Positions 1,936 through 13,870 of a stretch of DNA of 30,991 bases are shown here, piece by piece; within the stretch, counting starts at the first letter, position 1; each line of letters opens with the position of its first letter. A program made the translations under genes and the position numbers. A model generated the notes under the pieces. The model was given only the letters and a program-made list of their open reading frames with translations. It was not told the origin of the DNA and did no database searches. The stretch spans positions 1 to 30,991 of the IMG/VR virus record IMGVR_UViG_3300034013_000050; one strand, given 5' to 3'. Source of the stretch: a virus.

Positions 1936-1986
1936 GTTAAAGTTTTGTTAAAAAAAATTAGTATATACTTTTTTAATATACATTTG
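1936..1986 (+). promoter_or_regulatory. Promoter P1 (GTTAAAGTT box + TAnnTTTG)
   Basis: TACATTTG at 1979-1986 matches the Bacteroidota -7 consensus TAnnTTTG, 29 bases before the ATG at 2016. A GTTAAAGTTTT box begins at 1936, 43 bases upstream of the -7 box; the same arrangement recurs at P2 and P3 (42 bases). A good -33 TTG at standard spacing is not seen. The distal box may therefore be an activator site or a variant sigma element. Confidence 0.72.
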
Positions 1987-3442: not shown

Positions 3443-3450
3443 ATTTAACA

Positions 3451-3477
3451 GGGTAGTGTAAAAGCTACCCTTTTTTT
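3451..3477 (+). terminator. Terminator/attenuator T2
   Basis: GGGTAG (3451-3456), eight-base loop, CTACCC (3465-3470), then seven Ts, only 8 bases after ssb. No promoter is seen between it and the next ATG at 3489, so it probably acts as a partial terminator that lowers expression of the ATPase and later genes. It is a near copy of T1. Confidence 0.85.
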
Positions 3478-3488
3478 ACAAAAGACAA

Positions 3489-4633: not shown

Positions 4634-4846
4634 ATGATTTTATTTCTTGTTTGCTTTTGCTTAATTTGTTTAATAGTATTTCAGTTTGTAGACTGCGAAA
4701 TTATTATAACTCCAATTAAAGGTGTAATGGTTGGTGCATTATACAACGATGATGTTTATGAAGATGAAACTGAACACACAATACAAGTGCTTTTATTCGT
4801 AATTTCATTTTCTTTTGTATGGATAACAAATGGCTCAACCAAGTAG
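4634..4846 (+). CDS. Small two-helix membrane protein
   Basis: A 70-aa protein with two hydrophobic segments (about 2-18, FLVCFCLICLIVFQF, and 52-66, VLLFVISFSFVWI) separated by an acidic loop (YNDDVYEDETEH). It is probably an inner-membrane protein with both ends on the same side. Size and layout could fit a holin, but the position in an early operon beside the sigma factor makes that unlikely. It overlaps the sigma factor gene by 28 bases. Confidence 0.6.
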   Translation: MILFLVCFCLICLIVFQFVDCEIIITPIKGVMVGALYNDDVYEDETEHTIQVLLFVISFSFVWITNGSTK

Positions 4847-5358
4847 CAGCACATCACGATGAATGGATTAAAATTATTAATTCGTTTGGTGAATATGACT
4901 ACGCAGAAGATATTGTACAAGAAACGTACATAGCTTTGTACAAGTATGCTGATGCTACAAAGATTATAGATGCTTCAGGCAATGTTAGAAAGGGCTACGT
5001 GTTTTTCACTTTAAAAAGTTTATTCTTTCAGTACTATAACAAAAAAATGAAAGTAAATAAAGTATCAATAGATGAACAATTTACTTTATTTGATGATTCT
5101 AATTTAGATGAACACAATGCTTACAATGATATTTGTTTGCTAATTGATGAAGAAATAAAAAATTGGCATTGGTACGATGAAAAGTTATTTAAACTTTATA
5201 GGGATTCTGATATGTCTATGCGTGATATAGCTAAAGAAACAAACATAAGTTTAATATCAATTTTTAATTCAATCAAAAATTATAAAGAAATTTTAAACAC
5301 TAAATTTAATAAAGATTATCAGGATTACATTAATAACGATTATAACGGAATATACTAA
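4819..5358 (+). CDS. Phage-encoded sigma-70/ECF-like factor
   Basis: A 179-aa protein with the two essential parts of an ECF-type sigma factor. Residues 28-43 (YAEDIVQETYIALYKY) match the conserved region 2.1-2.2 helix that binds core RNA polymerase, with the usual AEDIVQET signature. Residues about 120-158 (EKLFKLYRDSDMSMRDIAKE, then NISLISIFNSIK) form a region 4-type helix-turn-helix that would read the -35 element. Promoter-melting region 2.3-2.4 (about 55-75) is aromatic-rich. It would redirect host RNA polymerase to phage promoters. The GTTAAAGTT box shared by P1-P3 is a candidate target, but that link is inference. No anti-sigma gene is recognised beside it. Confidence 0.78.
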   Translation: MDNKWLNQVAAHHDEWIKIINSFGEYDYAEDIVQETYIALYKYADATKIIDASGNVRKGYVFFTLKSLFFQYYNKKMKVNKVSIDEQFTLFDDSNLDEHNAYNDICLLIDEEIKNWHWYDEKLFKLYRDSDMSMRDIAKETNISLISIFNSIKNYKEILNTKFNKDYQDYINNDYNGIY

Positions 5359-7111: not shown

Positions 7112-7235
7112 ACCAAATGAAAAGAAAACTGATTTCGTACAAAGATGTATGATTGATGAAAAAATGAAAACTGAATATCCTGATACAGAACAACGATATG
7201 CAGTTTGTAGAGAACAAGTAAAGGGTAGCAATTAG
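7092..7235 (+). CDS. Conserved 47-aa phage protein
   Basis: ATG at 7092, stop TAG at 7233-7235. The sequence begins MPLPKPKPNEKKTDFVQRCM and ends YPDTEQRYAVCREQVKGSN. The pattern P-x-P...DF..RCM......YPD..QR.AVC is a recurrent short motif in phages and prophages, in my recollection often near head-maturation genes, with no established function. Here it closes the early operon instead. Its last codons lie within terminator T3 (stem 7224-7240), so ribosomes finishing this gene would invade the hairpin. The two Cys could bind metal. Confidence 0.62.
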   Translation: MPLPKPKPNEKKTDFVQRCMIDEKMKTEYPDTEQRYAVCREQVKGSN

Positions 7236-7248
7236 CTACCTTTTTTTT
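7223..7248 (+). terminator. Terminator T3, overlapping a stop codon
   Basis: GGTAGC (7224-7229), AATTA loop, GCTACC (7235-7240), then eight Ts. The left arm and loop encode the last residues and stop of the 7092 gene, so translation reaches into the hairpin. It is immediately followed by promoter P2. Its sequence closely matches T6 at 24524. Confidence 0.88.
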
Positions 7249-7252
7249 AAAT

Positions 7253-7302
7253 GTTAAAGTTTTACTAAAATGTATTTTGTATTAATAACTTGTTTATATT
7301 TG
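7253..7302 (+). promoter_or_regulatory. Promoter P2 (GTTAAAGTT box + TAnnTTTG)
   Basis: TATATTTG at 7295-7302 fits the Bacteroidota -7 box. GTTAAAGTTTTACTAAAA begins at 7253, 42 bases upstream, and matches the P1 box. A TTTTG at 7275-7279 could be a -33 element, but at short spacing. The leader to the ATG at 7345 contains AACAAATAACAA and ACAAATT, as at P1. Confidence 0.75.
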
Positions 7303-7344: not shown

Positions 7345-7590
7345 ATGAAAACTATCGATTTACAAAAAGAACATTACACTTACGAAAATGGAAATTTAGG
7401 TTCTATAATGACTAATAATGGTTATTTTTTAGATGTTGAAAAAGAAACTGAAAAAGCAATATTAATACAGTTGTATGGTAAATTACATTGGTTGCCTAAA
7501 AGTGCTTTTGTAGGTAAAGATTTAGGTAATGATTGTATTGTTTTTTCAATAAAACCATTTTTTACTAATCAAATAATGAATAAATTTTAA
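7345..7590 (+). CDS. Hypothetical protein, first gene after P2
   Basis: An 81-aa protein that looks beta-rich, with YFLDVEKETEKAILIQLYGK then LHWLPKSAFVGKD. The arrangement 'ILIQLYGKLHWLPKSAF' recalls small single-domain proteins encoded by phages and mobile elements, but I cannot name a family. It heads the second operon. The A-rich leader lacks a Shine-Dalgarno. Confidence 0.65.
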   Translation: MKTIDLQKEHYTYENGNLGSIMTNNGYFLDVEKETEKAILIQLYGKLHWLPKSAFVGKDLGNDCIVFSIKPFFTNQIMNKF

Positions 7591-8999: not shown

Positions 9000-9232
9000 T
9001 GAAAGAAATTACTGCTGAACATTATCACCTTGCTTTGTACGAATATGAACAGGGAATGAGTTTAGAAGAACTACGTGAGGTTATAAAGCATTACGAAGAT
9101 TTAGAACTATTTGAAGTATGTCAGGGTGTGCATTTAGCAGTAGAAGTAATTAGATTTCATATCTTATATGATTTAGCAAGAAAAGAACCAATAAAAACAA
9201 AAAAATTAAAATGGAAATTAACGAAAAAATAA
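8999..9232 (+). CDS. Hypothetical protein, 77 aa
   Basis: Helical protein with HYHLALYEYEQGMSLEELRE at the start and a very basic tail (KTKKLKWKLTKK). No recognised domain. It is start/stop coupled to the MazG-like gene and overlaps the next gene by 22 bases. The basic tail might touch DNA, with no other support. Confidence 0.6.
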   Translation: MKEITAEHYHLALYEYEQGMSLEELREVIKHYEDLELFEVCQGVHLAVEVIRFHILYDLARKEPIKTKKLKWKLTKK

Positions 9233-9723
9233 AAGAATTAGTATTACAACAAACTAACATAAACGTAGATGATACTACACGTACACGTGAGCAAGTAGAA
9301 GCACGTAGTTTATACTACACACTAATAAAAGAAATAGCACCTAAAACAACTTTAAAACAAATAGGTAATTCAGTTAAAAAGAATCACGCTACAGTTATCT
9401 ATGGTTTGAATCAATGGGATATGCTTGTAAGATATAACCCAACACTAAACAAGTATAAGGAACGCATTTTAAAGATGTTTGATAAAGAAATAGATTCAAC
9501 TGATATAGATTTACTACGCAAACAAATTAACCGCTTACAAGGCGAATTAATAGATTTGCAAATAGAGAATGAAAGATTAAAGAAACAATTACTACGAGAT
9601 GAACACGAAACAATACAAAATATTAAATTACTTTTTCATAGATTTGAAGGCACAGAACACCACGAATTGTTTTTGTTTAGATTAAATCAATTAGTAGATA
9701 TAAATAGTAAAAGAAAATTATGA
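9211..9723 (+). CDS. DnaA C-domain-like helix-turn-helix protein
   Basis: A 170-aa protein whose first half resembles the DNA-binding C-terminal domain of DnaA: RSLYYTLIKEI then TTLKQIGNSVKKNHATVIYG (46-65), an arrangement close to the DnaA signature (...IG..FG.RDHSTV...). There is no ATPase domain. The second half (about 100-135) is a long coiled coil (LLRKQINRLQGELIDLQIEN). It could bind DnaA-box-like sites in the phage origin, or act as a transcription regulator. With no phage polymerase, a role in host replisome recruitment is an attractive inference. Coupled to the next gene by an ATGA overlap. Confidence 0.76.
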   Translation: MEINEKIKELVLQQTNINVDDTTRTREQVEARSLYYTLIKEIAPKTTLKQIGNSVKKNHATVIYGLNQWDMLVRYNPTLNKYKERILKMFDKEIDSTDIDLLRKQINRLQGELIDLQIENERLKKQLLRDEHETIQNIKLLFHRFEGTEHHELFLFRLNQLVDINSKRKL

Positions 9724-13261: not shown

Positions 13262-13322
13262 GTTAAAGAAATGTTAAAGTTAACATTGAGTGTTAATAAT
13301 TTAAAAAGTAGGTGTATGTTTG
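13262..13322 (+). promoter_or_regulatory. Promoter P3 with repeated GTTAAAG box
   Basis: TATGTTTG at 13315-13322 fits the Bacteroidota -7 box, 31 bases before ATG 13354. GTTAAAGTT begins at 13273, 42 bases upstream, as at P2. A second GTTAAAG starts at 13262, exactly 11 bases (about one helical turn) earlier. The doubled box suggests a bound regulator. Transcription would serve the two small genes at 13354-13811 and possibly the tail operon past T4. Confidence 0.68.
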
Positions 13323-13353: not shown

Positions 13354-13527
13354 ATGGAAACTTTAGTAATAGAATTAGAAAACAAATTTACAGGCGAATT
13401 AGTAATTAATAAACAACACTCTACAAACGCAACTGCTTTTAAAGAAAGTTTCATTAAAGGAACTAAAACTATGAAATGGTTGTTAGGTGATTGGAATGTA
13501 TCAAGATGTTATATTGAAACTAAATAA
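13354..13527 (+). CDS. Hypothetical protein, 57 aa
   Basis: Start chosen at ATG 13354: an in-frame ATG at 13312 overlaps the -7 box of P3 and would lie upstream of the transcript start, while 13354 follows an A-rich leader. The product begins METLVIELENKFTGELVINK and ends LLGDWNVSRCYIETK. It is mixed alpha/beta with no recognised family. Confidence 0.58.
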   Translation: METLVIELENKFTGELVINKQHSTNATAFKESFIKGTKTMKWLLGDWNVSRCYIETK

Positions 13528-13811: not shown

Positions 13812-13838
13812 AATTGGTTGGTTAAATAGTTGGAATTA

Positions 13839-13865
13839 GGGTAGCAGAAATGTTACCCTTTTTTT
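13839..13865 (+). terminator. Terminator T4 with GAAA tetraloop
   Basis: GGGTAGCA (13839-13846), GAAA loop, TGTTACCC (13851-13858), then seven Ts. The eight-pair stem includes one G-T wobble, and GAAA is a stable GNRA loop, making this the strongest-looking terminator of the window. It separates the P3 genes from the tail operon. Confidence 0.9.
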
Positions 13866-13870
13866 ATTTC

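Follow-up and report, generated by a model that had tools for sequence, protein, structure and literature searches.

Three promoters (P1, P2 and P3) of a phage of the Bacteroidota carry, upstream of the -7 element, a pair of direct GTTAAA repeats 11 bp apart that stands in one of two registers separated by one helical turn. The same pair is conserved in related phages and lies before the stress protease gene htrA and the sensor kinase gene rprX in host genomes. Each pair is probably an activator site of the phage. Sequence comparisons predict that it holds two molecules of a response regulator of the OmpR/PhoB type supplied by the host, and the best candidate is RprY from the RprX/RprY stress two-component system of the Bacteroidota.

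Paired repeats at three phage promoters

The window analyzed is the whole virus record of 30,991 bp. A first-pass annotation of this DNA had described a shared box at a fixed distance from the -7 element of three promoters, and the coordinates bear this out: GTTAAAGTT starts at positions 1936, 7253 and 13273 and TAnnTTTG at positions 1979, 7295 and 13315, which gives distances from GTTAAAG to TAnnTTTG of 43 bp (P1), 42 bp (P2) and 42 bp (P3). All three matches to GTTAAAG-N35/36-TAnnTTTG are intergenic and on the + strand, no fourth match exists on either strand of the whole window, and a reversed control pattern has no match in the window. The three matches compare with a chance expectation of 0.025 on average and a maximum of one (1000 first-order Markov simulations with the dinucleotide content of the window). 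TAnnTTTG by itself is not enriched in the window (58 found, 60 expected), so the signal is the spacing; the feature is real and its spacing is meaningful. The elements of the three promoters are listed below, with start sites derived from a -7 element at -12 to -5, a placement taken from PMC9723704.

1902..1928, + strand: terminator-like hairpin and T run directly 5' of P1, GGGTAGtgtcaGCTACCC-T8
1936..1941, + strand: P1 repeat copy 1, GTTAAA; offset 43 from the -7 element, about -55 to -50
1947..1952, + strand: P1 repeat copy 2, GTTAAA; 11 bp downstream, offset 32; perfect GTTAAAn5GTTAAA at 1936-1952
1979..1986, + strand: P1 -7 element TACATTTG; start site about 1991; gene 2016-2222
7223..7248, + strand: terminator-like hairpin and T run directly 5' of P2, GGGTAGCaattaGCTACC-T8
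7253..7258, + strand: P2 repeat copy 1, GTTAAA; offset 42
7264..7269, + strand: P2 repeat copy 2, degenerate (ACTAAA); offset 31; GTTAAA in relatives L011 and L015
7295..7302, + strand: P2 -7 element TATATTTG; start site about 7307; gene 7345-7590
13262..13267, + strand: P3 repeat copy 1, GTTAAA; offset 53, about -65 to -60
13273..13278, + strand: P3 repeat copy 2, GTTAAA; offset 42, about -54 to -49
13315..13322, + strand: P3 -7 element TATGTTTG; start site about 13327; gene 13354-13527

The hairpins ahead of P1 and P2 are of the type GGGTAGC...GCTACC-T8, and since both promoters start a few bases 3' of them, each resembles the start of a new operon. An Erf-like annealing protein gene and others lie downstream of P1, an exonuclease VIII-like protein gene and the terminase lie downstream of P2, and P3 is located 3' of the terminase large subunit gene. 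Two more terminator hairpins with T runs (3449-3479 and 13838-13866, GGGTAG...CTACCC/TTACCC type) are apparently not followed by a boxed promoter.

The second GTTAAAG that had been seen exactly 11 bp earlier at P3 is present (start 13262). The doubling is not peculiar to this promoter, since P1 carries a perfect second copy (1947-1952) and P2 a degenerate one (7264-7269). The unit is thus double, with two GTTAAA copies spaced by 11 bp in place of a single box, and both copies are perfect at P1 and P3. It stands in the near register at P1 and P2 and in the far register at P3, so that the alignment at 42–43 bp mixes the two copies, taking the upstream one from P1 and P2 and the downstream one from P3; the distances of the supposed single box are correct, but the same box is not aligned at all three promoters. 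A non-standard sigma recognition element, also considered in the first-pass annotation, is not supported: such an element would need one fixed distance to the start site, whereas the position of the pair varies by a full helical turn, in the window and in its relatives, and the -7 elements are of the ordinary sigma-A type.

Two further sequence features overlap these promoters. At P3, AATGTTAAAGTTAACATT (13270-13287) forms a near-continuous inverted repeat with 8-bp arms and a 2-bp centre that overlaps the downstream box and is also present in relative L014. The 35-nt stretch TTTGCTTCATCAAACAATAACAAATAACAAA (1979-2013) covers the -7 element of P1 and part of the leader. Flavobacterium sp. phage 1/32 has a counterpart of 97% identity (L004 3001-3035) but no GTTAAA pair at that place, and the first part of the stretch is common to several relatives. 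Judged by these comparisons, it is a conserved leader that is independent of the box.

The pair in related and unrelated phages

A total of 80 relatives were found via the terminase, 73 of them with enough sequence 3' of the terminase gene. The P3 pair (at most one mismatch) follows the terminase gene in 57 of these 73 relatives compared with 3 of 73 shuffled sequences. The remainder of the P3-type promoter is largely divergent among the relatives that keep the pair. Across the 80 relatives, offsets of 53, 42 and 31 before TAnnTTTG show an excess of GTTAAA, and an inspection of their individual promoters reveals paired repeats with an 11-bp spacing. In the relatives that keep the pair after the terminase gene, it lies about 25 or about 36 bp before TAnnTTTG. 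A histogram of all TAnnTTTG in the relatives produced peaks at offsets 53 and 44, which are partly an artefact because conserved coding stretches (the gene before the terminase and a structural gene) chance to hold both GTTAAAG and TAnnTTTG.

The two registers extend to other viruses and to host chromosomes. A scan of IMG/VR that allowed gaps of 16–46 gave about 131 cases with a bimodal distribution of pair-to-TAnnTTTG gaps (35 at 25–28 and 72 at 35–38), on contigs of up to 368 kb. The same two clusters were found in Flavobacteriaceae genomes (19 and 22 of 52). Phages and hosts thus share both the two direct half-sites about one helical turn apart (GTTAAA-N5-GTTAAA) and the helical phasing of the pair to the core promoter, with gap clusters about 11 bp apart. 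One viral fragment (L294) has seven boxed promoters, all in the far register. An exact scan of bacterial and archaeal genomes with allowed gaps of 30–42 gave at least 120 matches; among the matches listed, 96 of 121 occurrences have a gap of 36–39 and about 67 of the 80 titled matches belong to the Bacteroidota.

Bacteroides phage B124-14 contains five distinct promoters with repeats, each with 37 bases from the second GTTAA to TA and with n=4 or 6 between the GTTAA repeats (one site was matched twice as it holds three GTTAA). The consensus GTTAA(n)4-7GTTAA(n)34-38TA(n)2TTTG was reportedly described for strong promoters of Bacteroides phages (Whitaker et al. 2017, Cell). It resembles the pattern in the window, since GTTAA stands in it twice, at a set spacing from TAnnTTTG. 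P3 matches this reported consensus exactly (n=6, n=37), P1 has n=27 and is one turn closer, and P2 is without the second GTTAA. The present analysis goes beyond it in extending the motif to phages of other Bacteroidota and to the htrA and rprX promoters of the hosts, and in proposing a candidate binder.

The pair at host promoters and its candidate binder

A perfect GTTAAA-N5-GTTAAA is located 66–208 bp upstream of the htrA/degP gene, which encodes a stress protease of the Do family, in 26 of 30 genomes, against a background of no perfect pair in 235 kb of host DNA that was not selected for the pair. When ten genomes were searched in full for the pair together with a -7-like element, five of the six sites found were htrA promoters (control: 0). 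Upstream of rprX, 27 of 37 loci (mostly Flavobacteriaceae) have a pair with at most one mismatch, compared with 2 of 740 shuffles. Its position hardly varies: the distance to the start codon is typically 53–62 bp, with a TAATTTTG-like element nearby. Furthermore, an unbiased scan identified perfect pairs before four RprX-like kinases, all of which match RprX much better than PhoR. The Bacteroidales rprX loci tested have no clear pair upstream, although B124-14, which infects hosts of this order, does use the pair, and the rprX site is not phylum-wide. Overall, 100 Flavobacteriaceae genomes contain about 0.5 promoter-spaced pairs per genome, in two registers, which indicates that the pair is selective. 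Other genes behind a host pair encode TetR and PadR regulators, UppS and GldA and form no obvious single regulon, and tRNA genes were found downstream of host pair sites in isolated cases only. Taken over all TAnnTTTG of the host DNA, the upstream enrichment of GTTAAA is too weak to use.

These host sites bear on the question of what binds the pair. The first-pass annotation had pointed to the phage HTH proteins encoded at 4819 and 9211, and a phage-encoded activator or sigma-like protein that reads the box could time phage transcription, in line with the presence of the box at three promoters of the phage. The 4819-5358 product is small and weakly sigma-like (weak phrog_1740 and Sigma70_r2 matches) and the 9211-9723 product has a DNA-binding domain, but this is a DnaA domain IV (DnaA-box binding) without the ATPase part (PF08299, E 8e-10), and both proteins fit poorly as the activator. 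The -7 elements are of the ordinary sigma-A type. Moreover, boxes of this kind precede htrA and rprX in the hosts and are found in B124-14, a phage unrelated to this one; a factor of the host is therefore indicated, and a phage-encoded one is very improbable.

A second possibility dispenses with a regulator: the repeats may form a sequence-specific UP element to which the C-terminal domains of both alpha subunits of the host RNA polymerase bind directly. The repeat centres lie near -40.5, -51.5 and -62.5, not far from where the alpha-CTD is known to bind in E. coli; moreover, the pair can shift by one turn and occurs at promoters of unrelated genes and phages. This interpretation is favoured by the match to -41/-52/-62 and weakened by the rRNA promoters, where an UP element should be strongest, yet those examined in Bacteroidota genomes have A-tracts and no GTTAAA pair. 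Neither would an UP element be expected to be so rare in other host DNA and yet nearly fixed before htrA and rprX, and it is now considered an unlikely explanation. Bacteroidota rRNA promoters (L326-L355) have upstream A-tracts, TATATTTGcacccgc-type -7 regions are common among them, and often two promoters stand in tandem.

A bound activator, as had been suggested from the sequence of the window, is supported by a pair that is conserved, phased to the promoter and common to two host stress-response promoters. Host genomes encode one to three OmpR-type DNA-binding regulators each, and most of these are either PhoB-like or encoded after a kinase gene in the order coaE-rprX-rprY. The latter group is provisionally taken to be RprY because its N-terminus in Prevotella (MDEKFKI) and its IW.DDN segment agree with MEEKTRI and IWADDN encoded by published P. 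gingivalis rprY primers. The recognition helix of RprY (SMDVYI.KLRK) differs from the PhoB-like helix and is nearly identical in Flavobacteriaceae and Bacteroidales, which would explain why phages of both orders use one box. The protein of Porphyromonas gingivalis and Bacteroides fragilis is a conserved OmpR-type regulator that is autoregulated and linked to stress (PMC5706477, PMC3646045, PMC4072883), in agreement with the sites described here; in P. gingivalis it has been reported to bind promoters of stress genes as well as its own (PMC5706477), and in B. fragilis 638R no two-component regulator other than rprX/rprY is reported as essential (PMC4072883). None of these three papers reports a binding motif for RprY.

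Several genomes fit poorly with RprY. In Flavobacterium davisii (G001; C1:496583-498161 and L399), rprX is broken by stop codons and the adjacent rprY frame is a short fragment of 88 aa, in a system that is essential in B. fragilis, while the htrA pair is intact. The rprXY genes are present in G031, where the htrA pair is absent, and degenerate box repeats stand before htrA in the draft genome G066, in which RprX/RprY were not found. Genome G043 has no RprX or RprY matches and no htrA pair either. Because of G001, G031, G066 and the Bacteroidales rprX loci, the identification of RprY as the binder of the pair is only probable, and the host origin of the binding factor is better supported than its identity.

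The pair might instead be bound by a different host regulator in control of both htrA and rprX, whether another protein of the OmpR type or a global regulator unrelated to it. It would account for the htrA box that is kept in G001 despite the decay of rprXY, for the repeats in G066 and for the Bacteroidales rprX promoters without a pair. However, the sole other widely conserved OmpR-type protein found is PhoB-like, with a different recognition helix and an operon of its own that lacks the pair (seven phoB operon regions, none with a pair upstream), G001 has a paralogous kinase-regulator pair (L442) with its own near-perfect box before the kinase gene, and G066 is a draft; a regulator other than RprY is thus rather unlikely. 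A Pho box bound by PhoB, suggested by the 11-bp repeats, was discarded as the phoB operons examined have no pair and the boxed host genes are not phosphate genes.

Proposed mechanism and its parallels

With RprY as the probable binder, each of the two head-to-tail GTTAAA half-sites would hold one winged-helix domain. The half-sites have their centres close to -62 and -51 or to -51 and -40, and their spacing of 11 bp would place both domains on the same side of the helix. The regulator would then stand beside the polymerase and help the host sigma-A RNA polymerase to start at an ordinary TAnnTTTG promoter, where the dimer could compensate for a weak -33 element. A shift of the pair by one full turn keeps the DNA face, which matches the two registers. 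Three phage operons would in this way be placed under a host activator, and infection or stress might raise the activity of RprY; alternatively, the phage might benefit from the constant activity of an essential regulator.

The nearest functional parallel, by analogy, is CpxR. The E. coli CpxR box GTAAA-N5-6-GTAAA likewise consists of head-to-tail half-sites about one turn apart, is bound by an OmpR-type regulator, CpxR, which activates degP (PMC9600279), whereas the half-site here is GTTAAA with 11-bp spacing, in another phylum and at -33/-7 promoters, and has only a candidate binder. The nearest viral parallel, again as an analogy, is the use of host PhoB by cyanophages, whose Pho boxes also place phage genes under the site of a host two-component regulator (PMC10976474). 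In contrast to these, the pair is found on phage operons and not on auxiliary genes, and the proposed system responds to stress rather than phosphate; the same study warns that predicted Pho boxes are unreliable without binding tests (PMC10976474).

Since the paired repeat is common to the phage and to the stress protease and stress-sensor operon of the host, the virus probably ties its expression to a host stress regulator. A more tentative extension, held with less than even confidence, is that phages across the Bacteroidota (31-kb freshwater, jumbo and gut phages) converged on the RprY site and that their expression is tied to envelope or protein-folding stress of the host. A GTTAA-repeat phage promoter is in use to drive genes in engineered gut Bacteroides, and we know of no named binder for its upstream repeats. 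Although the GTTAA/GTTAA consensus itself is reportedly already known from Bacteroides phages, its link to host stress regulation appears to be new. If the repeats are RprY sites, this class of promoters would not be constitutive and would follow a host stress regulator reported to be essential in B. fragilis; RprY would gain a binding motif, and phages of a whole phylum would use one host two-component system.
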